From the NCBI GenBank assembly GCA_002733105.1, contig NVUI01000006.1, positions 33,999 to 66,786 of the forward strand: 32,788 nt of DNA, written 5' to 3'. This DNA is from Methylophaga sp. (lineage in GTDB: Bacteria > Pseudomonadota > Gammaproteobacteria > Nitrosococcales > Methylophagaceae). How positions within the stretch are numbered: the stretch's first letter is position 1; each line of letters begins with the position of its first letter. This document shows, piece after piece, positions 1,758-27,975 of the stretch. The notes below the pieces were generated by a model. That model did no database searches. It had not been told where the DNA came from and saw only the letters and a program-made list of their open reading frames with translations. The translations under genes and the position numbers were made by a program.

Positions 1758-1770
1758 AGCCGTTCAAATA

Positions 1771-2766
1771 TCATACTGAAATAAGGCCAAAAGGATGGCT
1801 GCCAATGATTGAAAAAGCCATGGTAATGATAATCGCTAAGTAGATAACTCTTGGTATCCACTCTGCTAACAAATTTTCTTGCATATTAATTTTTTCAGCT
1901 TCAATTTTGGTAAAATGCAGCATTGTTTGAGCAAGGCTGCCACTATTCTCTCCAATGCGTAATTGATAGATTATTTCATTGTTTATTGCTGGGATATGAC
2001 TGAGTGTTTCAGTCAGACTGTTACCTTGTTCTATCGACGAGGCTGTTAACGAGAATTGAGAACGAAGCACTCTGTTTTTGATGGTGGCAACGGCTTTGGG
2101 AAGCGCATATAGCATTGGCAAGCCTGCAGATAACATTAGCCCCAAGCTATAGATGAAATCATTGATTTGTCGGCTGATAACCCATTTAGCCATGATGGGC
2201 AGTTTTATTTGCAGAGTACTAAATAACTGGCCAAAGCCGAAATACTGGAGCCGGCTATAAGTTAACCATTTAGATAATGTGTAGATAATATAAAGGCCCA
2301 AAGTTATTTTAAACAGTAGTCCTATTGTTCTAGCTAGGTAAACCAGCCCCGTTATTTCAGTTGCAATTAAAGAGGGAAGTGGTTGTATAAATATGGCGAG
2401 TATCAAAAGAACGAGAGGCAAATATAATTTAGACTTGATATATTTCATACGTTTTGTTTTGTTTGCATAATATTCTGCTAGCTGCTGGTAAATTGTACCT
2501 AATTGGCCACTTTCTTCACCGACCAGCACTAGACCTTTATCAAATAGGCCGAAGATACCTGCTTTGAATCCTGATTCGGCAATAGATTTGCCTTGCTGGA
2601 GATATTTTTGTAACTGTTGTATGTTTTTTGCCGTTTTTTTATCTGTTTGTTGTAGTAAACCAAATGCTTGTTGAGCAGAAAAACCAGTCTGTTCCAGTTG
2701 GCAAAGTTGCCAATAAATATTGGCACGAGATTTAACCGAAATAACTGGTAAGTGAATTGATTTCAT
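1771..2766 (-). CDS. Orphan type II secretion system F (GspF/PilC-like) inner-membrane protein
   Basis: GspF/PilC proteins are polytopic inner-membrane platforms of type II secretion and type IV pilus machines. The 331 residues contain two T2SF repeats. The first carries GEESGQLG at about 83-90 and the second GENSGSL near the C-terminal third. Hydrophobic segments lie at about 114-135, 142-164 and 303-323. The protein is shorter than typical GspF (about 400 residues) and lacks much of the usual N-terminal extension. No gspE, gspG, pilB or pilD homologue lies in the window, so it is an orphan or part of a dispersed system. The ATG has no clear ribosome-binding site, so the start is uncertain. 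The family is confident and the role is not. Confidence 0.85.
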   Translation of the reverse strand: MKSIHLPVISVKSRANIYWQLCQLEQTGFSAQQAFGLLQQTDKKTAKNIQQLQKYLQQGKSIAESGFKAGIFGLFDKGLVLVGEESGQLGTIYQQLAEYYANKTKRMKYIKSKLYLPLVLLILAIFIQPLPSLIATEITGLVYLARTIGLLFKITLGLYIIYTLSKWLTYSRLQYFGFGQLFSTLQIKLPIMAKWVISRQINDFIYSLGLMLSAGLPMLYALPKAVATIKNRVLRSQFSLTASSIEQGNSLTETLSHIPAINNEIIYQLRIGENSGSLAQTMLHFTKIEAEKINMQENLLAEWIPRVIYLAIIITMAFSIIGSHPFGLISV

Positions 2767-2991
2767 AGTGATCTAAGTATACTGCAACGATGGTAGAATA
2801 ATGGTTTAAGCTAAATATAGTATGATTTTATGGTAATAATGGGACAGTCAAATATACCGTACAGTTTCAATATTTATTTAGACTAGATGTGGCGAGGTGA
2901 TAATAAAGATCCAGAATTGGACTTGCTTTTATTAATCATCCTCAAGCAGAATAACAACAAGGCCGTTAAATAGATAAATAAGGTGAGTCGA

Positions 2992-3447
2992 ATGAAAGTA
3001 AGATCAATTACTAAGAATAAAGGTAAGCCAGTTATTGGCTTGACGCCCAATGATTCATTAGATCAAGCTGTGACATTAATGATGGATAATCGCATAGGGT
3101 CATTGATTGTCACTGATGATAGTGGTGCCGTTGTTGGTATTTTATCTGAACGTGATTTACTGAGCGTTTTACATGATAAACATGCGATGTGGGCACCGTT
3201 AATGGTTGCTGATGCGATGACGCCAGACCCTATTGTGTGCCACCCAGATAATACCTTAGAAGAAGTGATGAAGATGATGGTCGATAATAATATTCGTCAT
3301 TTACCGGTACTGTATGAAAGTAAGTTAGAAGGAATGCTTTCAATTACAGATATTGTAGAAACATTGCTAGAAAAAGCAAAATTTGAAAATAAACTATTGA
3401 AAAATTATATTCAAAATTGGCCAGATGCTGAGGGTGAGAGTGAATGA
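2992..3447 (+). CDS. Tandem CBS-domain protein
   Basis: This soluble 151-residue protein is essentially two CBS motifs, at about residues 10-66 and 78-135, forming a Bateman module. Hallmarks are GILSERDLL at the end of the first repeat and AMTPDPIVCHP followed by LPVL and SITDIVETLL in the second. Such modules bind adenine nucleotides or related ligands and often act as sensors, but with no effector domain the partner is unknown. An in-frame GTG at 2983 is possible. The ATG at 2992 is preferred because AAGGTGAG sits 5 bases upstream of it, whereas the GTG lies inside that Shine-Dalgarno sequence. The gene stands alone, convergent with the DUF3579 gene. Confidence 0.88.
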   Translation: MKVRSITKNKGKPVIGLTPNDSLDQAVTLMMDNRIGSLIVTDDSGAVVGILSERDLLSVLHDKHAMWAPLMVADAMTPDPIVCHPDNTLEEVMKMMVDNNIRHLPVLYESKLEGMLSITDIVETLLEKAKFENKLLKNYIQNWPDAEGESE

Positions 3448-3467
3448 GTTGAAATATTTATTAGGTT

Positions 3468-3494
3468 AAAGGCCGTTATTGATCGCCTTTTATT
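3468..3494. terminator. Possible bidirectional terminator between convergent genes
   Basis: AAAGGC (3468-3473) pairs with GCCTTT (3485-3490) around an 11-base loop, followed by TATT. The stem is only 6 bp and the loop is large, so it is weak. It sits in the 54-base gap between two convergent stop codons, where a shared terminator is expected. Confidence 0.35.
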
Positions 3495-3501
3495 AATATA
3501 T

Positions 3502-3798
3502 CTACAACGTCTCTGGCAGTGGAAATGTATCGGTACGCAAGATTTGTAAATTATTTTCATCGGCAAAATCGGTAAGAAATTCAAATAACATTTCGTCTTC
3601 TTCTTCCAATGAGGCATCAATTACAACACATTTAATCCCTTTAATAGATGCCAATGCAACATTAGGATGGAAAATGATGCGGCGACCAGGACCATATGTC
3701 GCAACGGCTCCACACAGACGTTCAGCCCAATCACTAGGGCGAAACTTGCCTCCATCCAATGTGATACCTTGGATAATGACTTTTCCGATTGTGGACAT
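3502..3798 (-). CDS. DUF3579 family protein
   Basis: The 98-residue soluble protein matches the DUF3579 pattern as I know it: a start of the form IIQGITLDGGKFRPSDWAER, then a hydrophobic core, and a C-terminal segment FLTDFADENNLQIL. The family is found in beta- and gammaproteobacteria and has no established function. A GAGAAG sequence lies a few bases upstream of the ATG on the minus strand and supports this start. It is transcribed divergently from ileS, sharing a 171-base upstream region. No catalytic motif is visible. Confidence 0.85.
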   Translation of the reverse strand: MSTIGKVIIQGITLDGGKFRPSDWAERLCGAVATYGPGRRIIFHPNVALASIKGIKCVVIDASLEEEDEMLFEFLTDFADENNLQILRTDTFPLPETL

Positions 3799-3885
3799 AT
3801 TTGGCTTCTCGCATTAGGCGTATTTATAGAATTTAGAGATATTCTACTGCAAAGTATTGGTGTAGCGGAATAAAATTTAGATAAA

Positions 3886-3907
3886 TAAATCACATTTCAG
3901 TGATTTA
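3886..3907. promoter_or_regulatory. 8-bp inverted repeat overlapping the ileS promoter
   Basis: TAAATCAC (3886-3893), six bases, then GTGATTTA (3900-3907) form a perfect inverted repeat. It overlaps the putative -35 element of the ileS promoter, which suits an operator. It could alternatively be a weak hairpin on the divergent DUF3579 side. Confidence 0.35.
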
Positions 3908-3932
3908 GCTCAGTAGCAAAAACCCGTATAAT
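3904..3932 (+). promoter_or_regulatory. Putative sigma-70 promoter for ileS operon
   Basis: A perfect TATAAT (3927-3932) is preceded at 17 bases by TTTAGC (3904-3909, 3 of 6 to TTGACA). Transcription would start near 3939-3940 and give a leader of about 30 bases before the GTG at 3970. This is the only good -10 hexamer in the gap. Confidence 0.55.
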
Positions 3933-3969
3933 TAGCCGTTATATTGATTTTGAATTTACGAGTGATCTA

Positions 3970-6771
3970 GTGGCTGAATATAAACACACCTTAAACTTGC
4001 CTGAAACCAAGTTCCCAATGAAGGCGGGCTTGCCTAATCGCGAACCATTAATGTTAAAGCGTTGGCAGGAAAATGGCCTGTATCAAAAAATGCGTGATAA
4101 CGGTGAGGGGCGACCTAAATTTATTCTGCATGATGGCCCTCCATATGCTAATGGTGATATTCATATCGGTCATGCGGTGAATAAAATTCTCAAAGATATT
4201 ATTCTAAAATCTAAAACACTCAGTGGTTTTGATACGCCTTATGTACCTGGTTGGGATTGTCATGGTTTACCGATTGAGCTTAATGTTGAAAAGAAAATTG
4301 GTAAGCCAGGTAAAAAAGTAACAGCAGCCGAGTTTAGGACGGCATGTCGTGTTTATGCCCAAAAACAAGTGGATGGTCAGCGTGAAGATTTCAAGCGCTT
4401 AGGGATATTGGCTGAATGGGATAATCCATATCTAACGATGGATTTCAGTTTTGAAGCTGACATTATTCGTACTTTAAACGAAATTGTTAAACAGGGACAT
4501 TTGCACAAAGGGGTTAAACCGGTTCATTGGTGTGTAGATTGTGGCAGTGCTTTGGCTGAGGCTGAAGTGGAATATGAAGATAAAAAATCCCCCGCCATTG
4601 ATGTGCGTTTTACTGTTATTGACAGTAAATCATTTGAAGCAGCAACGGGCGCTACTGGCTTGGGCAAAATCAGTGTACCTATTTGGACAACAACGCCGTG
4701 GACTTTGCCTGCCAATCAAGCGGTATCACTAAACCCTGCTTATGACTATGTTGTGGTACAAGCGGGTGATGAACGACTGTTATTAGCTGAAGCCTTATAT
4801 GAATCAGCATTAGAGCGTTATGGAATGCAAGGTGAAGTGGTTGCTCGTTGTAAAGGTGAAGCAATAGAAGGCTTGTTATTACAGCATCCATTTTATGACA
4901 AGCAAGTGCCTATTATCTTGGCTGATCATGTTACTGCAGAAGCAGGTACGGGCGCGGTTCATACTGCACCCGGGCATGGCCAAGATGATTTCACGGTAGG
5001 TTTGAAATATGATCTGGAAGTCTATAACCCAGTAGGTTCAAATGGTGTATTTTTACCCGATACTGAGATCTTTGCCGGGCAATCGGTATTTAAAGCTAAT
5101 CCAAATGTGATTGATTTATTAAAAGAAAAGGGTGCCTTATTAAAGCATATTGATATTCAACATAGCTATCCACATTGCTGGCGGCATAAGAGCCCGATTA
5201 TTTTCCGTGCCACACCACAATGGTTTGTCAGTATGGATCAAAATGATCTTAGACAAGCGGCACTGCAAGCCATTACTGAAACACAATGGATGCCTGAATG
5301 GGGGCAAAAACGTATCGAGGGCATGGTCGAAGGCCGTCCTGATTGGTGTGTTTCACGTCAACGTACTTGGGGTGTGCCGATCCCGTTATTTGTACACCAA
5401 CAAACAGGTGAGTTACATCCCAAAACGCAACAGTTAATGGAGCAGGTTGCTCAAAAAGTTGAACAACAAGGTATTGATGCTTGGTTTGAATCAGAATTAA
5501 CAGATTGGTTAGGTGATGAAGCGGTTGATTATGAAAAGGTGAGTGATACTTTAGATGTGTGGTTTGATTCCGGTGTGTCTCATGCTTGTGTATTAGCACG
5601 TCGAGATTACTTGAGTCGTCCCGCCGATTTATATTTAGAAGGCAGCGATCAGCATCGTGGTTGGTTCCAGTCTTCATTATTAACATCGATTGCATCGACA
5701 GGTAACGCACCGTACAAAGCCGTGTTAACCCATGGGTTTGTTGTCGATGCCACGGGCAAGAAAATGTCAAAATCAGTGGGCAATGTGGTTGCACCCCAAA
5801 AGGTAGTTAATAATTTGGGCGCTGATATTATCCGTTTGTGGACGGCATCTTCAGATTACAGTGCTGAAATGAGCGTGTCGGATGAGATTTTAAAACGAAC
5901 GGCAGATTCTTATCGCCGTATTCGTAATACCTCACGTTATTTATTATCCAACTTATTTGATTTTGACCCAGCAACAGATCTTGCGGATATTAAAGATATG
6001 TTGCCATTAGATCGCTGGGCTGTAGATCGAGCATATCAGTGCCAACAAGATATTTTAGCCGCTTATGACAGTTATAATTTCCATGTGATTTATCAAAAAA
6101 TTCATAATTTCTGTGCACAGGAAATGGGCAGTTTGTATTTAGATATTACTAAAGATCGCCAATACACTATGCAGGCAAATAGTGTGGCACGGCGCTCAAG
6201 CCAAACAGCGATGTATCATATTATTGAAGCATTAACACGTTGGATGGCACCGATTCTAAGTTTTACTGCTGATGAATTATGGGGTTATCTACCAGGTGAA
6301 CGTAATGGATCTGTATTGCTTAATACTTGGTATGAAGGTTTAACGCCCTTAACTGAGCATTCGCAGTTTGATATTACTTTCTGGGATAAGATTTTTGCTG
6401 TCCGTGATACTGTTTCAAAGGAATTAGAGGTATTACGCGCCGAGGGCCGGATTAAAGGAGGTTTGACAGCTGAAGTCACGCTATACGCTGAGCCTGATTT
6501 ATTTAAAATTTTGAATATTTTGGATGATGAGTTGAAATTTGTGTTGATTACATCAGCTGCTCACTTATTGCCTGCAAACAATAAACCAACAGATGCAATT
6601 GAAAGTTCGATCGCGGGGTTATCATTAGTGTTAACTCCTTCAGAACAAGCTCGTTGCGATCGCTGTTGGCACCAAACAGAGCAAGTGGGCAAGGATGAAA
6701 CACATCCTGAACTATGTGGTCGCTGTATTGAAAATGTTGATGGAGAAGGCGAACAACGCCTATATGTCTAA
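3970..6771 (+). CDS. ileS: Isoleucyl-tRNA synthetase
   Basis: This class I aminoacyl-tRNA synthetase charges tRNA-Ile in the cytoplasm and edits valine. The 933 residues match the bacterial form (E. coli 938). HIGH lies at 65-68 within [17 protein letters not shown] at 598-602, and a C-terminal zinc-finger has cysteines at 896, 899, 916 and 919. The editing (CP1) insertion is present, including [12 protein letters not shown]. Translation starts at a GTG; the N-terminal segment with [15 protein letters not shown] matches the family and no upstream start is available. ribF, the common upstream neighbour in other bacteria, is absent here. The 3' end overlaps lspA by 8 bases. Confidence 0.97.
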
Positions 6772-7243: not shown

Positions 7244-8325
7244 TATTTGGTGATTTGGCCTTAGATTGTATCACTAAGTTACAACCCTATGTGCCAGGTA
7301 AACCGGTTGAAGAATTGGAACGAGAACTGGGTATTAGTAACATTGTAAAACTGGCTTCAAATGAAAATCCATTAGGCCCTTCAGCATCAGTATTGGCTGC
7401 GATTGACGGTGCGAGTAAAGCACTTAGCCGTTATCCGGATGGTAATGGTTTTACTTTAAAAACTGCATTAGCAGAAAAGTATCAGCTTGATCTTGAGCAG
7501 ATCACTTTAGGCAATGGTTCGAATGATGTGTTGGAATTGATTGCCCGTGCTTTTGTGTTGCCAGAAGATGAAGTGCTGTTTTCACAATATGCTTTTGCAG
7601 TTTATCCGATCGTGACCCAAGCTATAGGCGCTAAAAGTGTGATTGCCCCCGCTCGTGACTATGGTCATGACTTGCAGGCAATGAGCACACTAATTAATCA
7701 ACGTACTAAGCTGATCTTTATTGCTAACCCGAATAATCCAACAGGCACATATGTGGCTGAAAAAGAATTAGAAGCATTTGTACAACAGGTGCCAGAGCAC
7801 ACATTGGTAGTGATTGATGAAGCTTATGTTGAATATGGTGATGGCACGGTAGACACGATTGGTTGGTTGAACAAATATGCTAATTTGATCATTACGCGTA
7901 CATTTTCAAAGGCCTATGGTTTGGCTGGGTTACGAGTAGGTTATGCTTTGTCACATCCTGAAGTGGCTGATTTATTAAATCGTGTTCGTCAGCCATTTAA
8001 TGTCAATAATTTAGCTTTAGCAGCAGCGACAACAGCACTTAAAGATAATGAATATCTTGCTGCCACTAAACAGCTAAATAATGAGGGTATGGCACAATTA
8101 ATAGCTGGGTTTGATGAACTTGGTTTAGAGTATATTCCTTCTAAAGGTAATTTTATTACCGTGGATGTGAACAGAAATAGTGAAGAGGTGTTTGCTGATT
8201 TATTACGCCAAGGCGTTATAGTCCGACCTGTTACTAATTATGGACTACCCAAACATATACGTGTCAGCATTGGTTTGCCAGATGAAAATGAACGTTTTCT
8301 TGATGCTATGAGGAAAATACTATGA
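7240..8325 (+). CDS. hisC: Histidinol-phosphate aminotransferase (possibly also aromatic aminotransferase)
   Basis: This is a fold-type I PLP aminotransferase of 361 residues. SNENPLGPS near the N-terminus, NPNNPTGTY in the middle, and TFSKAYGLAGLRVGY with the PLP lysine at residue 224 are HisC hallmarks. HisC catalyses the glutamate-dependent transamination of imidazoleacetol phosphate. Here it sits directly before tyrA and aroA, the position of the broad-specificity HisC paralogue (HisHb) in the Pseudomonas aromatic supraoperon. A role in the last step of phenylalanine and tyrosine synthesis is therefore a reasonable inference. The start overlaps the lspA stop (ATGA) and the stop overlaps the tyrA start in the same way. 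Confidence 0.93.
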   Translation: MIFGDLALDCITKLQPYVPGKPVEELERELGISNIVKLASNENPLGPSASVLAAIDGASKALSRYPDGNGFTLKTALAEKYQLDLEQITLGNGSNDVLELIARAFVLPEDEVLFSQYAFAVYPIVTQAIGAKSVIAPARDYGHDLQAMSTLINQRTKLIFIANPNNPTGTYVAEKELEAFVQQVPEHTLVVIDEAYVEYGDGTVDTIGWLNKYANLIITRTFSKAYGLAGLRVGYALSHPEVADLLNRVRQPFNVNNLALAAATTALKDNEYLAATKQLNNEGMAQLIAGFDELGLEYIPSKGNFITVDVNRNSEEVFADLLRQGVIVRPVTNYGLPKHIRVSIGLPDENERFLDAMRKIL

Positions 8326-9185
8326 TTAAACGTTTAGCCATTATTGGCGTTGGTTTGATCGGTGGCTCTTTATCCTTAGCCTTAAAAAAAGCAGGTGTTG
8401 TGGGTGAAGTGATTGGTTATTCTCGTACTGAGCATGTTCGGCAGCAAGCATTAAACCTAGGCATCATTGATATAGCCGCTAGCAGTGTTAAACAGGCTGT
8501 TAAAGAGGCTGACGTGGTATTTTTAGCGGTGCCTTTGGCGGCGATGTCATCCGTTTTGACTGAGCTAGCTGGCAATATGAGTGACAACTGTATTATTACC
8601 GATGGTGGAAGTGCTAAAGGCGAATTAGTAAAGCTGGCGAGAAGTGTACTAGGCAATAGTTTTAGCCAATTTGTGCCTGGTCATCCCATTGCTGGTACAG
8701 AAAAAAGTGGCCCTGATGCAGCGTTTGCTACGTTGTATCAAGATCACCGTGTGGTGTTAACACCAGTAGCAGAAACTAATCTAGCAGCATTAGAAAAAAT
8801 ACGCTCCATGTGGCAGGCAACAGGTGCAGAAGTATTTGATATGGATGTTGAGCATCATGATGTGGTGTTGGCGGCAACCAGTCATTTACCCCATGTATTA
8901 GCCTTTAATTTGGTCAATATGTTGGCTGAACGTGATGATTGTGATGAAGTATTGCGTTATGCAGCCGGTGGTTTTAGAGATTTTTCACGTATTGCATCGG
9001 GGGATGCGGTCATGTGGCGAGATATTTGTTTAGCCAACAGTGATGCTATTTTAGGATTGCTGGAACAATATCATCAAGGTTTAAATCAATTAGAACAGGC
9101 TATCAAAAATCAAGATGGCGATACGTTAATAACAGTATTCGAACGAGCTAAACAAGCACGCGATACACGATTTTCAGAAGATTAG
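8322..9185 (+). CDS. tyrA: Prephenate (or arogenate) dehydrogenase
   Basis: TyrA oxidatively decarboxylates prephenate or arogenate towards tyrosine, using NAD(P)+. The 287-residue protein has an N-terminal Rossmann domain with GVGLIGGS at about 9-16. The catalytic domain includes PGHPIAGTEKSGP and ATSHLPHVLAF. It lacks a fused chorismate mutase, an ACT domain or a fused EPSP synthase, unlike the tyrA-aroA fusions in some pseudomonads. Substrate and cofactor preference cannot be read with certainty. The ATG overlaps the hisC stop by 4 bases, and aroA starts 19 bases after the tyrA stop. Confidence 0.93.
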   Translation: MIKRLAIIGVGLIGGSLSLALKKAGVVGEVIGYSRTEHVRQQALNLGIIDIAASSVKQAVKEADVVFLAVPLAAMSSVLTELAGNMSDNCIITDGGSAKGELVKLARSVLGNSFSQFVPGHPIAGTEKSGPDAAFATLYQDHRVVLTPVAETNLAALEKIRSMWQATGAEVFDMDVEHHDVVLAATSHLPHVLAFNLVNMLAERDDCDEVLRYAAGGFRDFSRIASGDAVMWRDICLANSDAILGLLEQYHQGLNQLEQAIKNQDGDTLITVFERAKQARDTRFSED

Positions 9186-11294: not shown

Positions 11295-12971
11295 ATGAGC
11301 GAAAGCTTTGCTGAACTTTTTGAAGAAAGTCTAAATTCAACACCAATGAAACCTGGCCAGATTGTATCTGGTATGGTTGTTAGCGTTAGTTCTGATGTGG
11401 TTATTGTCAACGCAGGATTAAAATCTGAAGGTGCCATCCCAGTAGAAGAATTTTTTAATGAAAAAGGTGAAATTACCGTTGAAGTGGGTGATTTGGTCGA
11501 TGTTTCATTAGAAACATTAGAAGATGGTTTTGGTGCGACACAATTATCACGCGAAAAAGCGAAAGCAGCAGAAGCATGGATCAAATTAGATCATGCATTT
11601 GAAGCTGATGAAGTTGTTATAGGTGTTATCTCCGGTAAAGTTAAAGGTGGTTTCACGGTTGAATTAGAAAATATTCGTGCATTCCTACCTGGATCTTTGG
11701 TTGATGTTCGTCCGATTCGTGACACATCACATCTGGAAGGCAAAGAGCTTGAGTTCAAGTTAATTAAACTAGATCGTCCACGTAATAATATTGTTGTTTC
11801 TCGCCGTGCGATTATGGAAGCAGAAAACAGTGTTGAACGTGAAGCATTATTAGAAACACTTGAAGAAAATAAAATCGTTAAAGGTATTGTTAAAAACCTT
11901 ACTGACTATGGTGCGTTTGTTGACCTTGGTGGTATTGATGGTCTTTTACATATCACAGATATGGCTTGGAAACGTGTTAAACACCCATCTGAAGTTGTCA
12001 CTATTGGTGATGAAATTGAAGTTCAAGTACTGAAATTTGATAAAGAACGTGAGCGTGTTTCATTAGGCTTGAAACAAATGGGTGATGATCCTTGGAAAGA
12101 AATTGCTCTTCGTTACCCAAATAATAGTCGTACCAAAGGTAAAGTGACCAATATTGCTGACTATGGTTGCTTTGTTGAAATTGAAGATGGTGTTGAAGGT
12201 TTAGTGCACATGTCTGAAATGGACTGGACTAACAAGAATGTTCACCCATCTAAAGTCGTTCAACTAGGTGATGAAACTGAAGTGATGGTATTGGATATTG
12301 ATCCAGAACGTCGTCGTATCTCACTAGGTATGAAACAATGTAAAGTGAACCCTTGGGAAGAGTTTGCAATGACTCATAATAAGGGTGATAAAGTCTCTGG
12401 TTCAATTAAATCAATCACTGATTTTGGTGTATTTATTGGCCTTGACGGTAATATTGACGGGTTAATTCACTTGTCTGATATTTCTTGGGAAGAAGATAAC
12501 GAAGAACTGATCCGTAATTATAGTAAAGGTGATGCGCTGGAAGCGGTTGTATTGGCGATTGATCCTGAACGTGAGCGTATCTCATTAGGCATTAAACAAT
12601 TACAAGATGATCCGTTATCTGCTTATTTAGCTGAGCATTCTCGTGGTACTATCGTGACAGGTAAGATCACTGAAGTTGATGCTCGTGGTGCAACTGTTGA
12701 ATTAGCTGAAGGTGTGGAAGGCTACATCCGAGCTGCTGATATTGCACGTGAACGTACTGAAGATGCTAGTAAGGTATTATCAATAGGTGATGAGGTTGAA
12801 GCTAAATTTACCGGTATGTCACGTAAAGATCGTAATCTTACTTTATCCATTAAAGCAAAAGATGATCAAGAGGAGACTGAAGCACTGAAAGAATATTCAA
12901 ATATTTCTGAAGGTGGTGCTACAACCTTAGGTGATTTGCTGAAAGAGCAAATGGATCAAAAAAATAACTAA
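11295..12971 (+). CDS. rpsA: 30S ribosomal protein S1
   Basis: S1 binds mRNA on the small ribosomal subunit and promotes initiation. The 558 residues (E. coli 557) contain six S1 OB-fold repeats. The later repeats are easy to see through recurrent phrases such as [45 protein letters not shown] and [28 protein letters not shown] lies 8 bases before the ATG. The gene is separated from cmk by a terminator and candidate promoter and from ihfB by another terminator, so it is probably its own transcription unit. Codon use appears biased (many CGT arginines), as expected for high expression. Confidence 0.97.
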
Positions 12972-13364: not shown

Positions 13365-13754
13365 ATGAAGTTTAGTCAGGAAACATTTTCTGACGCAAAT
13401 TATATCCATGCATACGATAGTCAAGCTATTGTTGTAAGAGACAAAAACAACTTGGAGTTACATAAACTCCACACTGATCTCATTTTAACAGCGGGTCAAA
13501 TTATTACCGATTGGAAAATCAATCAGATATTTGACATCCCAGTGAGTGACATTGATTTTCTAATGAGTTTGGATCCAGAAGTATTAATTATTACAACTGG
13601 ATCCAACCATCACTTCCTTCCCCCTCAGTTACTTGTCCAATTTTCTGAAAAATCAATAGGCGTGGAATGTATGTCACTGGGCGCTGCTTGTCGAACATAT
13701 AATTTGCTGATTGCAGAAGGTCGACGTGTTGTATTGTTAGCCAGTTTTGATTAG
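13365..13754 (+). CDS. Mth938-like domain protein (DUF498 family)
   Basis: This small soluble protein of 129 residues matches the Mth938/DUF498 fold family, whose eukaryotic relatives include the complex I assembly factor NDUFAF3 and AAMDC. Characteristic stretches are PEVLIITTGSNHHFLP, then GVECMSLGAACRTYNLL and RRVVLLASF at the C-terminus. No catalytic residue is established for the family. The ATG abuts the ihfB TAA with no spacer, so its translation probably depends on reinitiation after ihfB. The family call is confident and the function is unknown. Confidence 0.82.
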   Translation: MKFSQETFSDANYIHAYDSQAIVVRDKNNLELHKLHTDLILTAGQIITDWKINQIFDIPVSDIDFLMSLDPEVLIITTGSNHHFLPPQLLVQFSEKSIGVECMSLGAACRTYNLLIAEGRRVVLLASFD

Positions 13755-19709: not shown

Positions 19710-22142
19710 TTGTCTATCAGTTGTTATCACTGTGGTTTACCCGTTGCACAAAAAGGCATTTTTACTGCCGTTGTAGCAGATAAAAAGCATGAATTTTGTT
19801 GCTTTGGTTGTCAGACAGTTTGTCTAACAATTTATAACTCAGGTTTACAGGGATTTTATCAAAAAACACCTGAAAATACTTCATTAGCACCGCCGCCCGA
19901 TTTGCCCGTTGAATTCACATCATATGACTTGGATGATGTGCAAGCTGATTTTATTGATACCAACAGTCATATTCGTACCATACACCTATTAATAGAAGGC
20001 ATACATTGTGCTGCCTGTGTTTGGTTAATTGAGCATGCTTTAGCTCGGCAAGAAGGTGTGATAACGGCAGAGGTTAATCTGACTTCAAAGAGGCTTCGTC
20101 TGAAGTGGGATAACGATGTCATATTATTATCTAAAGTACTACAGGCCTTGGGCCAAATAGGTTATGCTGCCGTGCCTTTTGATCCTGAAACAGCAGAAGG
20201 GGCATTAGCACGGAAACATCAAAGCTTACTCTATCGGATGGCTTTTGCAGGGTTTGCAATGATGAATCTGATGTGGATTTCAATTGCATTATATTCTGGT
20301 GCAGATCAGGGTGAGTTTAGAAACTGGTTCCATTGGATCAGTTTTATTATTGCGACTCCAACATTACTTTATTCCGGTTATCCATTTTTACGCAATGCTT
20401 TGCTTGGTTTACGTCATCGTTATTTGACGATGGACTTACCGATTGCGATTGGTGCTGTAGCAACATACAGCTATTCAACGTATATAACAGTGAATGGTTC
20501 TGTTGGCGGTGATGTGTACTTTGATACGGTGGTGAATTTTCTATTTGTTATTTTAGTGGGGCGTTATCTTGAAGCAATATCCAAGCGTGAAGCACTATCT
20601 GCAACAACACGACTGTTAGAATTACAGCCAAAAGTAGCGACAGCGATAATTGATGGTGAACTTAAAATAGTACCGATTAGAACGGTTGAAATAGGTGACT
20701 TAATACTGATTAAACCGGGTGAAAATATTCCAGTTGATGGTGTCTTAGTCGATGGGCAGAGCGCGGTTAACGAATCAATGTTAACAGGTGAATCATTGCC
20801 TGTTGTTAAAATGATAGGTGATAAAGTTGTTGCTGGAAGTCTTAATGAGGAAGGGGCTTTTACAGTACAAACAGAGCAAGTTCTACGCAATACGGCTTTA
20901 GCTAAAATTGTGGCTTTAATGGAAGATGCTCAGGCGTCTAAAGCACCGATCCAATGTGCAGCAGATAGGGTCGTGCCTTGGTTTGTAGCTGTAACATTAT
21001 CATTAGCCTGTTTAACTTTTGTATACTGGGTCCAATTTGATTTCGAACAAGCCTTATTGGCTGCTACATCAGTACTTATTATTACTTGTCCCTGTGCATT
21101 GGGGTTAGCAACACCTATGTCTGTTGCTGTCGCTACGGGTGTTGGAGCCAATCATGGTATTTTAATCAAGCAAGGTGCTGCATTGGAATATTTGTCTCAG
21201 GTAACGCATTTTGTGTTTGATAAAACAGGCACTTTAACAGAAGGGAAATTGCGTGTTGTTACGGTTGAAGTGTTGGCTGAAATGTCGGCAGATGACTTAT
21301 TGTCAATAGCAGCTTCTGTCGAATCTTTATCAGAGCATGGTGTTGCAAAAGCCATTACAGTAGCAGCATCAGATCGTCATTTAACTTTATTGCCGGCGAC
21401 TGAATTTTTATCAATCCCTGGACAGGGAGTGCAAGCGAGATTAGAGCAAAAATTGATACTTGTAGGCACTCAGGCGTGGCTAGCAAAGAAAAATTTGCTG
21501 GTTCAGGGCAATTGGCAGCAGCAGGCGAGAGATTTAGAACAACAAGGTATTAGCTGTGTTTTTATTGTGATTGATGGCATGGTATCCGGATTGATAGGAC
21601 TGGCTGATCAGTTACGATCAGACGCTGAAATGATGGTTACACAGTTACAGAAACAAGGTATCTCTGTATCAGTATTAAGTGGTGATAGGCCATCTGTTGT
21701 GGCGGCAGTGACAGCAAAACTGGGCAACATAGATCGCCAAGCAGAGGTGCTGCCAAAAGATAAAGCTGCTGTAGTCAGAAAGCTACAACAACAAGGTGAA
21801 ATAGTGGCTATGGTGGGTGATGGAATTAATGATGCTCCCGCTTTGATCCAAGCTGATGTCGGTATTGCCTTAGCATCAGGTACTGATGTTTCTATTGAAA
21901 GTGCTGATATTGTGTTATCACACAATGAATTACATAAAGTAGTAGAGGCAAGAGAATTAGCGAGTAGAACTTTACGTACAATTAAACAGAATATTGTATT
22001 ATCATTCTGTTACAACATTATTATGGTGCCACTAGCAATGATGGCATTGATTAGTCCAGTAGTGGCGGCGCTGACAATGCCAATCAGTTCTTTGTTAGTT
22101 ATTGGTAACGCAGCCAGAATAAAATATTTCTATAAGAGGTAG
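19710..22142 (+). CDS. ccoI: Copper-translocating P-type ATPase CcoI (FixI), TTG start
   Basis: CcoI is the P1B-type copper ATPase dedicated to metalation of cbb3 oxidase. The 810 residues begin with a cysteine-rich segment (CYHCG at 5-9, then CCFGCQ) typical of CcoI. Next come a heavy-metal-binding domain with CAAC at 100-103, membrane helices, TGES, the CPC metal site (460-462), the phosphorylation motif DKTGT at 504-508 and GDGINDAPAL. No ATG or GTG lies upstream in frame, and the next Met is far downstream. The TTG at 19710, with GGA about 9 bases upstream, is the only start that keeps the N-terminal cysteine motif. ccoS follows after 4 bases. Confidence 0.94.
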   Translation: MSISCYHCGLPVAQKGIFTAVVADKKHEFCCFGCQTVCLTIYNSGLQGFYQKTPENTSLAPPPDLPVEFTSYDLDDVQADFIDTNSHIRTIHLLIEGIHCAACVWLIEHALARQEGVITAEVNLTSKRLRLKWDNDVILLSKVLQALGQIGYAAVPFDPETAEGALARKHQSLLYRMAFAGFAMMNLMWISIALYSGADQGEFRNWFHWISFIIATPTLLYSGYPFLRNALLGLRHRYLTMDLPIAIGAVATYSYSTYITVNGSVGGDVYFDTVVNFLFVILVGRYLEAISKREALSATTRLLELQPKVATAIIDGELKIVPIRTVEIGDLILIKPGENIPVDGVLVDGQSAVNESMLTGESLPVVKMIGDKVVAGSLNEEGAFTVQTEQVLRNTALAKIVALMEDAQASKAPIQCAADRVVPWFVAVTLSLACLTFVYWVQFDFEQALLAATSVLIITCPCALGLATPMSVAVATGVGANHGILIKQGAALEYLSQVTHFVFDKTGTLTEGKLRVVTVEVLAEMSADDLLSIAASVESLSEHGVAKAITVAASDRHLTLLPATEFLSIPGQGVQARLEQKLILVGTQAWLAKKNLLVQGNWQQQARDLEQQGISCVFIVIDGMVSGLIGLADQLRSDAEMMVTQLQKQGISVSVLSGDRPSVVAAVTAKLGNIDRQAEVLPKDKAAVVRKLQQQGEIVAMVGDGINDAPALIQADVGIALASGTDVSIESADIVLSHNELHKVVEARELASRTLRTIKQNIVLSFCYNIIMVPLAMMALISPVVAALTMPISSLLVIGNAARIKYFYKR

Positions 22143-22146
22143 ATGA

Positions 22147-22353
22147 ATGGATGTTATCTATGGCCTATTGCCTGGCATGTTATTGTTGGGCCTCATTGGT
22201 GTTGGTGTCTTTTTTTGGGCAGTACGCAGTGGGCAATATGATGATATGGAAGGTGCTGCCAATCGGATACTATTAGACGATGATGACCCTCTTCTAAAGC
22301 CTGAAGCACTTTCCCCACAAAATAATTCAAAGACTAAGAGTGTTGATGAGTAA
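22147..22353 (+). CDS. ccoS: cbb3 oxidase assembly protein CcoS
   Basis: CcoS is a small membrane protein needed for cofactor insertion into cbb3 oxidase. The 68 residues have one helix at about 4-26 followed by the family signature VRSGQYDDMEGAANRILLDDD. AGAGG lies 7 bases before the ATG. The C-terminal tail is longer than minimal CcoS and low in complexity. Its last codons overlap the start of the substrate-binding protein gene by 8 bases, joining that gene to the ccoGHIS transcript. Confidence 0.93.
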   Translation: MDVIYGLLPGMLLLGLIGVGVFFWAVRSGQYDDMEGAANRILLDDDDPLLKPEALSPQNNSKTKSVDE

Positions 22354-23509
22354 ATTTATTATTATTATCATTGGGCTTGTTTTCTCTCCCTTGATATCAT
22401 CCACTGAAAATATCAAAATTGGTATGACTACGGCCTTGTCAGGGTCTGCTGCTGCTTTAGGGCATGATATGAAAATGGGGGTTGAGCTGTATTTTGATTT
22501 TATCAATAAACAGGGTGGCATCGGCGAGCAAAAATTAGAACTCATTGTCCGGGATGATGGTTATGAGCCAGAGCACGCTGCGGTTAATATGCGAACTCTT
22601 ATTGATGCCGATAACGTTGTTGCTGTTATTGGTAATGTGGGTACCCCGACGGCTATTGTGACCGTTCCGATAGCAAAAGAGAAAAAGATATTATTGTTTG
22701 GTGCTTTTTCAGGTGGCGATGTATTGCGAGAAGATCCTGTTAGCCGATATATTATTAATTATCGCCCTAGCTATACTGAAGAAACAGCTGAGATGCTCTC
22801 TGGGTTATTTAAGTCTGGTATAAAACCCCAAGAAATTGCATTTTTCACTCAGCGAGATGGCTATGGGAATGCAGGCTATCAAGGCGCTATTCAAGCATTA
22901 TTAGCTCATGGATATAACAAGTATGATCAGCTGGCTCATGGTCGTTATACGCGTAATACACTTAATGTTGAAGATGCTGTGGCGACTATACTGGATGCCA
23001 AAATAGAGCCAAAAGCGATCATCATGGCAGGTGGTTACGCGCCTTCAGCAAAATTTATAACATTATTACAACAAGATTTTCCTGATATGTTATTTTTAAA
23101 CTTATCTTTTGTTGGAAGTCATGCATTGCAACAGGTACTACCAGCTGATGTTAAAAATGTCATTGTGACTCAGGTTGTACCCAACTTAGACTCTTCTTTA
23201 CCCATTGTTGATGAATATCTGACTATTCTTGAGCAATCTGAGCATCGTGTCGAACCAAATTTTGTTTCGTTCGAGGGCTTTATTATTGCTAAGATTTTCC
23301 ATCAGGGCCTACTTAACATTGATGGTGAAATTAATAAAGAAAGCATTATTGATGGATTTGAATCAATGTCTGAGGTAGATATTGGTTTAGGTATTGGCAT
23401 TAATTATAGTCAAACTGATCACCAAGCCTTGCATTCACTTTGGTTAACGTCTATTCAGGTTGGAAAGTTAGGATATTTTGACTGGTCAATGTTGATGTCA
23501 GGGGAGTGA
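22346..23509 (+). CDS. Periplasmic substrate-binding protein (Peripla_BP_6/LivJ-like), probable sensor partner
   Basis: The 387-residue protein has a cleavable-looking signal peptide (SKFIIIIIGLVFSPLISS, no lipobox cysteine). A type I periplasmic binding fold follows, recognisable by IKIGMTTALSGSAAALG, ELYFDFINKQGGI, VVAVIGNVGTPTA and IAFFTQRDGYG. This family normally delivers branched-chain amino acids, amides or urea to an ABC transporter. No permease or ATPase gene is near. The ATG overlaps the ccoS stop by 8 bases, and the next gene is a large membrane GGDEF-EAL receptor. A role as the ligand-sensing subunit of that receptor is inferred. The ligand is unknown. A GTG at 22340 is an alternative start. 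Confidence 0.88.
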   Translation: MSKFIIIIIGLVFSPLISSTENIKIGMTTALSGSAAALGHDMKMGVELYFDFINKQGGIGEQKLELIVRDDGYEPEHAAVNMRTLIDADNVVAVIGNVGTPTAIVTVPIAKEKKILLFGAFSGGDVLREDPVSRYIINYRPSYTEETAEMLSGLFKSGIKPQEIAFFTQRDGYGNAGYQGAIQALLAHGYNKYDQLAHGRYTRNTLNVEDAVATILDAKIEPKAIIMAGGYAPSAKFITLLQQDFPDMLFLNLSFVGSHALQQVLPADVKNVIVTQVVPNLDSSLPIVDEYLTILEQSEHRVEPNFVSFEGFIIAKIFHQGLLNIDGEINKESIIDGFESMSEVDIGLGIGINYSQTDHQALHSLWLTSIQVGKLGYFDWSMLMSGE

Positions 23510-23533
23510 ACAGCAAAATGAAGGAACGATCAT

Positions 23534-26500
23534 ATGTTTAATGCTTGGAGTATAAAGAAATTACTCCAGTTGTGGTCGTTAGTCACGATATTGGCGATTA
23601 TCCTGATAGCCGGTGTTGCTATTTATACCAATGAAGTTTTTTCTGATACACAGAGGCACTTAACAGAACAAGTTTTGCCTATGGAAAATGCAAGTCGACA
23701 AATTAGTAAAGTAGCCTCAGAGTTTATCGTTCGACAGAGAAAGGTAGTAGCTTCAACATCACTAAATGCTCTTAAGTTAATAGCATCAAGACAAAGTCTT
23801 GAAGAAGAATTTGAGAAATATTGGGATCAGATATTGGCTACTATAGTCAGTAAAGAAGAGAATGAAATTTCTTATTTTTTACGAAATGATTACCATCATT
23901 TTTTATATATTGATAACCAATTATTTGAATTTGTCAGGCAACGCATTATTCTGCAAGATCGACTTGATTTATTAAATCATGAGCTAAGAGCACTAGACCA
24001 AAAAATTCAAAATCAAGTTGAAGCTATTGCTGGACGCATTAATTTGCAAGTAAGCCGCGATAAGCGAGATATTAGAATGTTAGTTGGGCCAAGAAGTGCC
24101 TTGGATACTCAAAATTTAATCAATAAAGTGATCTTTGGCGATCAATATGCAATTCAGAAGTTAAGCCAAACAGTCAGACTTGGCATGTTAACAATAATAA
24201 ATTTAATGCAAAATATTTTGCAGACAGAAAGTATAGATGATTTATTGAGTATTCGTGAAAATGATATTAGGCAATTAGAGTTATTATTACAGATTGATAT
24301 TCATGAGTTAAAACGGAAACTAAAAGATAATCCTGCTTTGTTATTGCAAACAAAGACGCTCGAACAAGATGTTAATCAATTGATAACGATGGTAGTAGAA
24401 GGTGATGCATCTGTTTATCAGTTACGCGTTCAGCAATTAAAAAATAAGCAGTTATTGTTGACAGTCCAACAAAATTCTACCTCAGTGTTGGCATTGATGG
24501 GCGATAGCTTGGATCAATTTTCAGAGTTGGTGGGTGAGCAAAGTTTGAAAGCAGTATTGCACTCTTCAACAGTTGCAGAGAGTGCTCGCTGGCTTATCAT
24601 TATACTTGGGCTATTGGTGCTGTTAGGAATGATATGGTTTGTTGCGTCTATATCAAAACGAATCAACGTACCGTTAACAGAGTTACATCATGCAATGCGT
24701 GCATTATCTTCTGAGAATTTTGATACGCGGATACAGGTTACCCGTGGCCATAATGAATTTGCAGTTTTAGCCGAAGACTTTAATCAGTTTGCTACTAATA
24801 CACAAAGATTGATTGATGATTTGGCTGAAACAAGAGATTCGCTACAGATGCAGCAACAGCATATCAGAGCTATTTTAGATGGGGTGCCGGAAGCTATATT
24901 GACATTAGCATCATCAGGAGAGATTAAATCGACAAACCCAGCTACTGAGCGTATTTTGGGAGCAGAATCAGATCTATTGGTAGGGATGAATATTGTTCAG
25001 TTTTTTGATGAGAATCAGAATGTTGAACATTTACTTGATATTGCTGAACAACAGGAATTAAGTCAAGAGTTTTTAGGTAGAGACTTTCATAATAAGTTGT
25101 TTAATATGTGGTTGTCACTGAGCTTATTATCAGGCTTGGGTGGCGGTGTCTGGGTGTGTGTCATATCTGATATTACTGCATGGAAACAGGCTGAAGAGAA
25201 ACTAAAAATAACAAGTTCAGAGCTAGATACTATCCTTGATAATGCCATGGTCGGCATTGCCTTTATTAAAGATCGTATTTTGTTACGTATTAATAGCAAA
25301 TTTGAAGAATTATTTGACTGTGAAAGAGCGTTGATAGAGGGGCAATCCACACGCTGTTTGTATCCAACACAAAAGATTTATGATGAGCTTGGTGATGAGG
25401 CATACAATGATATATTGTCCCGTGGAGAGAATTTTGAAGGAAACGTAGAACTAATACGTCAAAATGGGGAAACGTTTTGGGGAAAAATTTCTGTCAAAGC
25501 CATTGATTCTTCTAACCCTCAAGCCGGTACGATATGGTTATTTGATGATGTCACTGAGCAACGAAAAAATCAATTGAAATTAAAAAGCTTAGCCAGTTTT
25601 GATAGTTTAACAGGACTTGCTAATCGTGCTGTATTCCATGACCGCCTCGGTCATGCTATAGATAAGGCTCAGCGTAATTCAGGACGGATAGCATTATTTT
25701 TTCTTGATTTGGATCATTTCAAAAATATCAATGATTCATTAGGGCATAAAGCAGGAGATTTACTACTGTGTGAGGTGGCGAGTCGTTTGCAAGACTCTGT
25801 GAGAGCAGATGATACCGTTGCCAGATTAGGGGGCGATGAATTCACTATTATTTTGGAGGATGTGACTTCAGCACGATATGTAGCAAAGGTGGCTGAAAAG
25901 ATATTGGATGTAATTTCACAATCATTTGTGTTGGAGACAACGGAAGTGAATGTGAGCCCGAGTATTGGGATCAGTTTGTATCCTGCTGATGGTCGTGATG
26001 TCGATTTACTACTGAGAAATGCTGATGCTGCGATGTATTATGCTAAGGAGAGTGGCAGGAATAACTTTCAATTCTACTCTGCTGAAATGAATGCTCAGGC
26101 CGCAGAACGTTTAGCAATGGAGACAAGTTTGCGGCATGCTATGGAACAAAATGAATTTTATTTACATTTTCAGCCTCAAATTAACTTGCGTACGGGGAGG
26201 ATTGCTGGAGCAGAAGCATTGTTACGCTGGAGCAGCGAACAGTGGGGTGCCATTTCCCCTGCCCAATTCATCCCTATTTTGGAAGATACAGGCCTGATTA
26301 ATGAGGTCGGTGAGTTTGTTATAAGACAAGCTTGTGAAGCATATATGTTATTGAAAGACAAATTAGAACCAGATTTTCAATTAGCAGTAAACCTATCTGG
26401 AAGACAATTTAAAGGGGGTACTTTAGCCCGCTTTGTTGAGAAAGTTTTGACTGATACGGGTATGTCAGCTAACAACTTGGAACTAGAAATTACGGAAAGT

Positions 26501-26896
26501 ATTTTAATGGATGATGCTGACTTAGCAATTAAAACGTTAACTGAACTAAATGAATTAGGTGTTACATTAGCAATCGATGATTTTGGTACAGGTTATTCAT
26601 CTCTTTCATATTTAAAACAGTTTCCATTAGATGTGTTGAAAATTGATAGATCATTTGTTCGTGATGTGAATGAAGATGCCGATGATGCTGCTATCGTTGA
26701 TGCGATTTTAGCGATGTCTAAGCGGTTAGGATTAGATGTGGTGGCAGAAGGGGTTGAAACAGCCGGGCAACTGGAATTTTTACAAGCACATGACTGCCAG
26801 AGAGTGCAAGGTTACTATTTCAGTAAACCATTACCATTTGATGAGCTAAGGAAATTTATAGAAAAGCCTGTACCTAATATCTTAATGGGCAAATAA
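23534..26896 (+). CDS. Membrane receptor with helical periplasmic domain, HAMP, PAS, GGDEF and EAL
   Basis: This is a 1120-residue c-di-GMP signalling protein. A first membrane helix (about 12-32) precedes a predominantly helical periplasmic region of about 315 residues, reminiscent of TorS-type sensors. A second helix lies at 353-373, followed by HAMP (374-426), two PAS-like regions (about 445-555 and 560-680), GGDEF (766-770) and EAL (894-896). The cyclase motif is intact and preceded by RADD, a plausible RxxD inhibitory site. The phosphodiesterase residues look intact: EALLRW, NLSG, EITES, DDFGTGYSS, LKID, AEGVE and QGYYFSKPL. Both activities are therefore possible. AAGGAA lies 7 bases before the ATG and 24 bases separate it from the binding-protein gene. 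Confidence 0.93.
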   Translation: MFNAWSIKKLLQLWSLVTILAIILIAGVAIYTNEVFSDTQRHLTEQVLPMENASRQISKVASEFIVRQRKVVASTSLNALKLIASRQSLEEEFEKYWDQILATIVSKEENEISYFLRNDYHHFLYIDNQLFEFVRQRIILQDRLDLLNHELRALDQKIQNQVEAIAGRINLQVSRDKRDIRMLVGPRSALDTQNLINKVIFGDQYAIQKLSQTVRLGMLTIINLMQNILQTESIDDLLSIRENDIRQLELLLQIDIHELKRKLKDNPALLLQTKTLEQDVNQLITMVVEGDASVYQLRVQQLKNKQLLLTVQQNSTSVLALMGDSLDQFSELVGEQSLKAVLHSSTVAESARWLIIILGLLVLLGMIWFVASISKRINVPLTELHHAMRALSSENFDTRIQVTRGHNEFAVLAEDFNQFATNTQRLIDDLAETRDSLQMQQQHIRAILDGVPEAILTLASSGEIKSTNPATERILGAESDLLVGMNIVQFFDENQNVEHLLDIAEQQELSQEFLGRDFHNKLFNMWLSLSLLSGLGGGVWVCVISDITAWKQAEEKLKITSSELDTILDNAMVGIAFIKDRILLRINSKFEELFDCERALIEGQSTRCLYPTQKIYDELGDEAYNDILSRGENFEGNVELIRQNGETFWGKISVKAIDSSNPQAGTIWLFDDVTEQRKNQLKLKSLASFDSLTGLANRAVFHDRLGHAIDKAQRNSGRIALFFLDLDHFKNINDSLGHKAGDLLLCEVASRLQDSVRADDTVARLGGDEFTIILEDVTSARYVAKVAEKILDVISQSFVLETTEVNVSPSIGISLYPADGRDVDLLLRNADAAMYYAKESGRNNFQFYSAEMNAQAAERLAMETSLRHAMEQNEFYLHFQPQINLRTGRIAGAEALLRWSSEQWGAISPAQFIPILEDTGLINEVGEFVIRQACEAYMLLKDKLEPDFQLAVNLSGRQFKGGTLARFVEKVLTDTGMSANNLELEITESILMDDADLAIKTLTELNELGVTLAIDDFGTGYSSLSYLKQFPLDVLKIDRSFVRDVNEDADDAAIVDAILAMSKRLGLDVVAEGVETAGQLEFLQAHDCQRVQGYYFSKPLPFDELRKFIEKPVPNILMGK

Positions 26897-27511
26897 TTAA
26901 TGGCTAGATCGATATTGTAATACAGATCTTTCAGTAGGATTTATGCGGATATTTAATCCTATCGCTGTGTATTGCCAAATGGTAGTATCAGGGCTTTCTG
27001 GATCTGGTTTTATCTGGTCTGGCTTGCCAAAGCGATGCTCAATTCTTGCTTTGTTGAGCTTAATTGATGGAATATAAGTAAGAGCAGAGATAGGGGTATC
27101 TAATAATGAAGCATGATCCTGTGGATTTAAATCATAACGGTGGGCACCACTTGGTTGTAGCCGAGCCTCTGTTGCGCGTTCTAGCATAAGCTCCACTTGG
27201 CGTTGATCAAGAGACATATTTAAAACAATTTTTGCAGATAAGCCACCTAAATTAATACTTTCAAAAAAGGCTTCTACAGTGGGTGTTTCATTTTCTTGAA
27301 TGAATACTGCTGTTTTACCGTAGGCATGGAGCATTAATTGTGCTTGGCGAAAGGTTGTTGTGCCAAGATGGATACCCAGTACTTTACTGTTCCCATCTCC
27401 CATCACTGTTACCTCCCACGGCATAGCTGCAGGTTCCTGCTTTGAAGGGAGGAGCATTAGCCCCATAATACCGACGAGTGTAAGCAGTAAACCAATAATA
27501 AAATTTCTCAT
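26897..27511 (-). CDS. Membrane-anchored protein of unknown function
   Basis: I do not recognise this 204-residue protein. The ATG at 27511 overlaps the dtd stop in an ATGA arrangement and starts the product immediately before a hydrophobic helix (about 4-22). That helix is followed by a proline-rich linker and a periplasmic domain. The segment VLGIHLGTTTFRQAQ and the later RIEHRFGKPDQI are the most family-like parts; the latter faintly recalls BamE-type domains, without real support. Longer upstream reading into dtd is possible but unlikely. The stop abuts the stop of the convergent GGDEF-EAL gene with no intervening base. Confidence 0.75.
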   Translation of the reverse strand: MRNFIIGLLLTLVGIMGLMLLPSKQEPAAMPWEVTVMGDGNSKVLGIHLGTTTFRQAQLMLHAYGKTAVFIQENETPTVEAFFESINLGGLSAKIVLNMSLDQRQVELMLERATEARLQPSGAHRYDLNPQDHASLLDTPISALTYIPSIKLNKARIEHRFGKPDQIKPDPESPDTTIWQYTAIGLNIRINPTERSVLQYRSSH

Positions 27512-27975
27512 GATTTTTGACCTGGAGGTGTATTGGGTGGAACCTGTAACCAAAAGGTTACGGGACCATCATTAGTGAGAGATACTTGCATATCAGTAGC
27601 AAATATTCCGCTTTGAACCGTGTGATATTGCTGTTTGGCTTGTAAACATAAATACTCAAAGAGTATTCTACCTTGTTCTGGTACCGCAGCAGAGCTAAAA
27701 CTGGGTCTCATTCCTTTTTGGGTATTAGCGACAAGGGTAAATTGAGGAACGAGCAACAATCCTCCATTAATGTCTTGAAGAGAAAGATTCATTTTATCTT
27801 CATTATCGCTAAAAATGCGATAACCTAACAATCGACTAAGCAGTCGATCAGCTTGCCTTTCAGAATCATGATGCTCTATACCAATAAGTACTAATAATCC
27901 TTTGCCTATTTTGGCAACTTGTTTATTTGCAATATCAACATTGGCGCGCTGTACTCGTTGTAACAATCCGATCAT
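27508..27975 (-). CDS. dtd: D-aminoacyl-tRNA deacylase
   Basis: DTD hydrolyses D-aminoacyl-tRNAs and Gly-tRNA-Ala in the cytoplasm. The 155 residues (E. coli 145) include the N-terminal LLQRV.RA pattern, KGMRPSFSSAA, and the Gly-cisPro motif NDGPVTF that recognises the chirality. The usual SQFTL motif reads PQFTL. A short tail after the core adds about ten residues. It overlaps pip upstream and the unknown gene downstream by 4 bases each (ATGA), so the three genes form a coupled operon. Confidence 0.94.
   Translation of the reverse strand: MIGLLQRVQRANVDIANKQVAKIGKGLLVLIGIEHHDSERQADRLLSRLLGYRIFSDNEDKMNLSLQDINGGLLLVPQFTLVANTQKGMRPSFSSAAVPEQGRILFEYLCLQAKQQYHTVQSGIFATDMQVSLTNDGPVTFWLQVPPNTPPGQKS

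Follow-up and report, generated by a model that had tools for sequence, protein, structure and literature searches.

A conserved pair of a periplasmic binding protein and a TorS-fold GGDEF-EAL receptor in Methylophagaceae

Introduction

The closest working precedents for the gene pair considered here are NspS/MbaA and ScrB/ScrC. A periplasmic binding protein controls the bifunctional GGDEF-EAL receptor in the polyamine-related NspS/MbaA system of Vibrio cholerae, where the nspS and mbaA genes overlap (PMC8967002), and in Vibrio parahaemolyticus the periplasmic ScrB switches ScrC, a dual enzyme of cyclic di-GMP (c-di-GMP), both encoded in one operon (PMC10269520). A 2022 review states that, from the clan of binding proteins that occurs in such enzymes, SBP_bac_3 alone had been studied in c-di-GMP networks (PMC8846402). 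Our subject is a binding-protein gene followed by a GGDEF-EAL receptor gene, situated behind the cbb3 oxidase (cco) genes in a stretch of 32,788 nucleotides of the marine methylotroph Methylophaga sp. (assembly GCA_002733105.1, contig NVUI01000006.1, positions 33,999 to 66,786), which is called the window below; its genome assembly measures 2.06 Mb, is divided into 22 contigs and is 82.5% complete. For most enzymes of c-di-GMP, a messenger in biofilm control, the signal is not known.

NspS binds polyamines and differs from the window's Peripla_BP_6 protein in its binding-protein class. Common to both systems are a binding protein and a GGDEF-EAL receptor (PMC8967002), and the window's pair has the features of this kind, namely a periplasmic domain followed by GGDEF and EAL domains whose motifs are intact, and a dedicated binding protein that is encoded with the receptor and has no transporter of its own. 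ScrB/ScrC is alike in joining a periplasmic protein to a dual c-di-GMP enzyme with the genes together, and it differs in ScrA, which makes the signal from the same operon, no such gene being seen in the window's pair. In LuxP/LuxQ the binding protein is likewise bound to the periplasmic domain of the receptor, a docking only proposed here, but the output is a kinase and the LuxQ sensor has a PAS-like fold. TorT/TorS, which senses trimethylamine N-oxide in E. coli and Vibrio, shares the periplasmic fold of its receptor with ours; its output is a histidine kinase instead of GGDEF-EAL, its genes are divergent whereas the window's pair lies on one strand, and the window's sensor stays outside the matches of the Pfam TorS_sensor_domain. 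Among the titles and abstract openings listed by searches of PMC, which mostly leaves out subscription papers, none describes the pair. According to our analysis it is a real conserved sensing unit, in which the combination of a TorS-type input with a c-di-GMP output is new, while the kind, binding-protein-coupled receptors, is known.

Results

We hold with good confidence that a binding-protein-operated c-di-GMP switch is the best explanation of the pair. The features on which the argument turns are the following (window positions):

22346..23509, + strand: binding protein (Peripla_BP_6, 387 residues), proposed ligand sensor for the receptor; Pfam E 8.8e-45; best solved relative 4kv7, E 2e-90
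23534..26896, + strand: membrane receptor of 1120 residues, in the order transmembrane span, TorS-fold sensor, transmembrane span, HAMP, PAS, PAS, GGDEF, EAL
23645..24565, + strand: all-helical periplasmic sensor domain, residues 38-344
24014..24283, + strand: receptor residues 161-250, candidate docking segment containing G167 and N243, shortened in 18/18 aligned receptors from genomes without the binding protein
24650..24805, + strand: HAMP, residues 373-424; Pfam E 2.1e-10
24860..25072, + strand: first PAS, residues 443-513; Pfam E 1.2e-12, weak FixL match E 3.7e-5
25265..25558, + strand: second PAS (best stretch PAS_9), residues 578-675; Pfam E 4.8e-18
25592..26065, + strand: GGDEF domain, residues 687-844, with GGDEF motif and RxxD site; Pfam E 9.2e-51
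26126..26830, + strand: EAL domain, residues 865-1099, with EAL and DDFGTG motifs; Pfam E 9e-76

Family counts refer to Methylophagaceae; G numbers denote genomes and L numbers loci. One set of 57 family genomes was searched both for the binding protein and with the sensor profile (A3). Of these genomes 25 contain the binding protein, and 22 of the 25 have a single full-length sensor match, the sensor lying at or being split by contig ends in the other three (G002, G005, G025); among the 32 genomes without it none has a full-length sensor, 22 have split or partial matches and 10 have none. Eighteen receptors with and 18 without the binding protein were then aligned, and frame-broken, truncated, contig-cut or unfetched ones (G003, G009, G790, G028, G020, G002, G005, G025, G785, G788, G804) were left out, as were G007 and G013, where only receptor remnants exist; G015 has none. 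G167, N243 and at least 75 residues of the segment 161-250 occur together in 18/18 receptors with the binding protein and in 0/18 without it. Gaps in this segment amount to 25-90 columns in the latter vs 0-11 in the former, and the GGDEF and EAL columns are ungapped in both sets. In three receptors without the binding protein (G011, G786, G800) much of the remaining periplasmic domain is also gone; that of G011 (L205, 8202-10622) keeps 23 of 307 periplasmic residues, with its two transmembrane spans brought together, and retains PAS-PAS-GGDEF-EAL, the whole enzyme. The coupling of binding protein and receptor, put forward as an idea in a first-pass annotation of this DNA, and their action as one sensing unit are supported by the co-occurrence in the 57 genomes and by the joint absence in the 36 receptors.

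The joint absence could be thought an artefact of lineage, if sensor types with and without the binding protein had been exchanged as whole blocks and the two proteins did not interact. On a tree of the receptor's cytoplasmic part the state of the binding protein changes at least three times, and a losses-only scenario would take five losses; the changes are clustered (3 for 36 receptors) and periplasmic parts are generally more divergent in lineages lacking the binding protein, both of which would suit this explanation. We consider it very unlikely all the same, since the three supported independent pairs on the tree all agree, G006 is sister to G001, which bears the binding protein, and G448, which lies outside the family, combines the lack of a binding protein match at 1e-40 with a sensor in which G167, N243 and roughly one half of 161-250 are missing. 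Block replacement, too, would keep both parts together.

The association extends beyond the family. A scan of named-species genomes with a 20-row alignment of the binding protein gave 297 relatives, of which the best 80 were kept as named loci. At 66 of the 80 a two-span membrane receptor stands directly 3' on the same strand; about 310 residues separate its spans, HAMP or an output domain is matched, and the output is a methyl-accepting chemotaxis protein (MCP) in 39 cases, GGDEF-EAL in 12, a histidine kinase in 11 and GGDEF only in two, two more being cut by a contig end. Of the remaining 14 loci, seven break off within 600 bases; in the other seven there is, downstream, an NMT1-like protein with a further GGDEF receptor behind it (L135), an HPP membrane protein (L140), a protein without Pfam match (L155), a HAMP protein (L158), a short frame with one transmembrane span (L136, L141) or no frame on that strand (L142). 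Neither G167 nor N243 varies among 48 sensors taken from c-di-GMP, MCP and kinase receptors. In 40 stretches from further genomes, 29 have a downstream protein of at least 250 residues; the 20 that were scanned comprise seven GGDEF, six MCP, three kinase and one GGDEF-EAL proteins, one that breaks off behind HAMP and part of a PAS, one porin (L072) and one without match (L080). These loci indicate that the closer binding proteins serve receptors and not a transporter, and that the sensor half is reused: the input half, made of the binding protein and the TorS-fold domain, is a portable module found elsewhere with chemoreceptor and kinase outputs.

This bears on the possibility that the receptor senses directly via its helical or PAS domains, the binding protein serving a transporter encoded elsewhere and their adjacency being operon hitch-hiking. 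This binding protein family also adjoins receptors of the MCP and kinase types that carry the same sensor, and segment and binding protein are jointly present or absent in 36/36 aligned receptors. LivH/LivM relatives occur in the flanks of one named locus (L135) and of none of nine clade loci searched; the other 79 named loci have none, with weak LivF/LivG-type ATPase matches in the flanks of six. In the window itself no ABC permease or ATPase was found among the proteins scanned with Pfam or NCBIfam, a scan that covered part of the open reading frames, which agrees with the absence noted in the first-pass annotation. Direct sensing is, in our estimation, quite unlikely. The same counts answer two doubts raised at the outset, that the homologues might usually be unlinked or the binding protein always paired with liv/urt ABC genes; neither was seen at the named loci.

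Two observations on individual loci may be added. The MCP pair of L190 (Vreelandella) is flanked by flavin-reductase-like (8086-8697) and DJ-1/PfpI-like (12346-12963) genes, possible ligand clues. At L220 (G144, 1-343) and L065 the receptor is preceded, on the other strand, by a fragment resembling the N-terminus of the binding protein; here the pair may be divergent, as in torT/torS, across a contig break.

Wider samples delimit the tie. A full-length sensor match was obtained in 15 of 398 phylum genomes, and 14 of these have the binding protein at 1e-40; a sensor match, partial in two cases, accompanies the binding protein in all 16 genomes of this sample where the latter reaches 43% identity, and G691 has a partial sensor and lacks the binding protein. 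In ten of 369 class genomes the binding protein reaches 43% identity, with a sensor match in 7/10, and G216 and G272 show weak partial sensor matches and no binding protein. A mirror-tree comparison of 41 pairs, reduced from 66 by merging near-copies, gave a Mantel r of 0.62, with 0/2000 permutations as high.

Several facts weigh against a strict partnership. G558 (71% complete) has a full-length sensor with G167 and N243 and no binding protein match at 1e-40; 38 phylum genomes with a best binding-protein match at most 40% identical have no sensor match at 1e-10, and neither do G245 and G132 (44% identical binding protein) nor G228 (52%, the contig ending behind the gene); both partners occur non-adjacent in G523 and G432; and the binding protein of G022 has an internal stop while the receptor is intact. 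With only three independent changes on the receptor tree, a sign test cannot reach significance (p 0.25). Tree congruence is weak among pairs with different outputs (r 0.15), and we do not rely on it. The tie of sensor and binding protein is strong in the closer subfamily, to which it is limited because the distant binding proteins come without a sensor match, and it is not absolute.

The receptor has hydrophobic spans at 6-37 and 345-377, enclosing a periplasmic part of about 307 residues which the predicted structure renders as all helix (mean predicted local distance difference test score, pLDDT, 89.1); the earlier estimate was about 315 mostly helical residues, and the HAMP-PAS-PAS-GGDEF-EAL order read then is confirmed by Pfam. 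All 36 aligned family receptors, the window's included, carry the GGDEF, RxxD, EAL and DDFGTG motifs, so both enzyme activities are plausible, and the receptor could plausibly both synthesise and break down c-di-GMP. A FixL-like heme PAS, to which the weak FixL match of the first PAS pointed and which would suit the oxidase context, was dropped, no histidine of this domain being common to all receptors in the family alignment.

By its model, the sensor domain has the three-dimensional fold of the TorS periplasmic domain. Fold comparison was needed: a profile search of the PDB with the sensor alignment gave no TorS chain, its best hit (E 0.016) being unrelated. In the fold comparison five TorS entries rank first, three of them TorS-TorT complexes; the match is taken from the top of the list, and the absence of other folds from it carries no weight. 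Pfam PF21689 (TorS_sensor_domain) has no match in the window's sensor and none among the families listed for 43 relatives (E 0.05); in 229 class genomes it matches once (G072), and it also matches E. coli among 14 control genomes. With reversed-sequence decoys as control, the sensor profile reached E 3.9e-11 against the PF21689 receptor L077 (decoy 0.14) and 0.058 against E. coli TorS (decoy 0.77), and hhalign probabilities were 81 for TorS, 64 for L077, 31 for L100 and 0.7 for L098, decoys giving 0.1-0.7. The parallel once drawn with TorT/TorS holds for the receptor fold and fails for the binding protein, which shows no relationship to TorT by sequence (hhalign probability 0.6).

The binding protein begins with a signal-like stretch, as read by eye, and shares the fold family of LivJ/LivK (hhalign probability 96.5 with LivJ). 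LivJ or UrtA membership is not reached (47.1 bits against a cut-off of 477 for PRK15404, 36.7 against 492.75 for UrtA), and, in difference from LivJ/LivK, it has no linked Liv permease genes. Positions T102, Y202 and E226, which together with Ser79 we take to be the ligand contacts of LivJ in this numbering, align by hhalign with G, A and S, and that of Ser79 with Thr. Because these contacts are replaced, a branched-chain amino acid ligand is doubtful, so that "LivJ-like" is apt for the fold family and questionable for the ligand.

In the window the order is ccoN, ccoO, ccoP, ccoG, a FixH-type gene, a CcoI-type metal ATPase gene, ccoS, binding protein and receptor (Pfam/NCBIfam). The gene immediately upstream of the pair is:

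22147..22353, + strand: ccoS, the final cco gene; TIGR00847 E 1.9e-16, FixS E 5.5e-21

The binding protein, read from the ATG at 22346 to its stop at 23509, overlaps ccoS by 8 bases, and 24 bases separate it from the receptor start; the coordinates bear out both distances as read initially, and the mechanical open reading frame starts earlier, with GTG at 22340. The scan of 21900-27100 gave three terminator-like matches against a shuffle mean of 2.9, none of them between ccoS and the receptor start, and 23 promoter-like matches against 18.0 (sd 4.4), near chance level. One of the latter, at 22343-22371, spans the ccoS/binding protein junction, where an internal promoter is conceivable. Downstream, at 26897-27553 on the minus strand, the window encodes a 218-residue protein with no Pfam match at 0.01, relatives of which adjoin dtd in most family loci fetched.

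The binding protein gene is single-copy in its own genome at E 1e-5. A search of relatives found it in 20 of 59 genomes, its own included, and the order ccoI-ccoS-binding protein-receptor is kept in all 20 (in G020 read across two contigs) and in five more family genomes, G790 with frame breaks; the pair was thus found again beside ccoS, as had been proposed for checking, and its conserved order is not chance. The automatically chosen start overlaps ccoS in 22/25 junctions examined, and the gap to the receptor is 1-39 bases in 23/24, the exception being frame-broken G009. Since the position behind ccoS is kept across the family, shared expression is likely: in Methylophagaceae the pair stands at the end of the cco operon and is probably co-transcribed and translationally coupled. 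At L118 (G009) the binding protein is in two frames and the receptor truncated, and at L113 (G022) the intact receptor accompanies the single stop mentioned above; decay or assembly error may be involved in both.

Such a position invites the suggestion that the unit is a respiration sensor coupled to cbb3 assembly, feeding a ligand or the redox state at the oxidase into c-di-GMP. Its position immediately after ccoS in the 25 family genomes that bear the binding protein, the overlapping starts and the weak FixL match speak for this, and the missing common histidine of the first PAS speaks against it. Two of four genus genomes without a ccoN match (1e-60), G010 and G012, keep the receptor at the same place, between relatives of window gene 13365-13754 and dtd (L243, about 1400-5550, and L236, about 1200-5600), with no cco genes at the locus; the genome-wide search covered ccoN, not other cco genes. 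Seven genus genomes have ccoN and lack the binding protein. In 13/80 named loci, those nearest the window (L122-L133, L149), ccoN/ccoG are in the flanks or ccoI is directly upstream, and the other 67, outside the window's clade, have none of these, some flanks being short. A respiration sensor is unlikely, and the working link to cbb3 assembly proposed initially finds no support beyond position. The unit's job is probably independent of the oxidase, whose genes are probably just neighbours; a functional tie to it is not needed to explain the observations.

Discussion

From the co-occurrence and the joint absence, it is most likely that the binding protein physically controls c-di-GMP turnover. 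We propose that the secreted protein would close on a small periplasmic ligand and dock on the TorS-fold domain, most likely as NspS does for MbaA (PMC8967002) and ScrB for ScrC (PMC10269520). The docked state might be relayed via the second transmembrane span and HAMP to the two PAS domains, which would shift the balance between GGDEF (synthesis) and EAL (breakdown). The candidate docking region is 161-250, the segment absent together with the binding protein, and receptors without this stretch presumably run on PAS inputs.

We may go further and suggest, at about even chances, that the binding protein and the TorS-fold sensor are one widely travelled input cassette plugged into c-di-GMP enzymes, chemoreceptors and kinases, that a stretch of about 30 residues around G167 is the docking latch, cut out where the binding protein was dropped and leaving the enzyme on PAS inputs alone, and that the ligand is no standard amino acid.

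In this pair the input is well defined and consists of two proteins: the binding protein has a solved relative (4kv7), the receptor has a TorS-type fold, and natural losses point to a short docking segment. The ligand class of a single such binding protein would suggest which class of signal acts on chemoreceptors, kinases and c-di-GMP enzymes across many genera.
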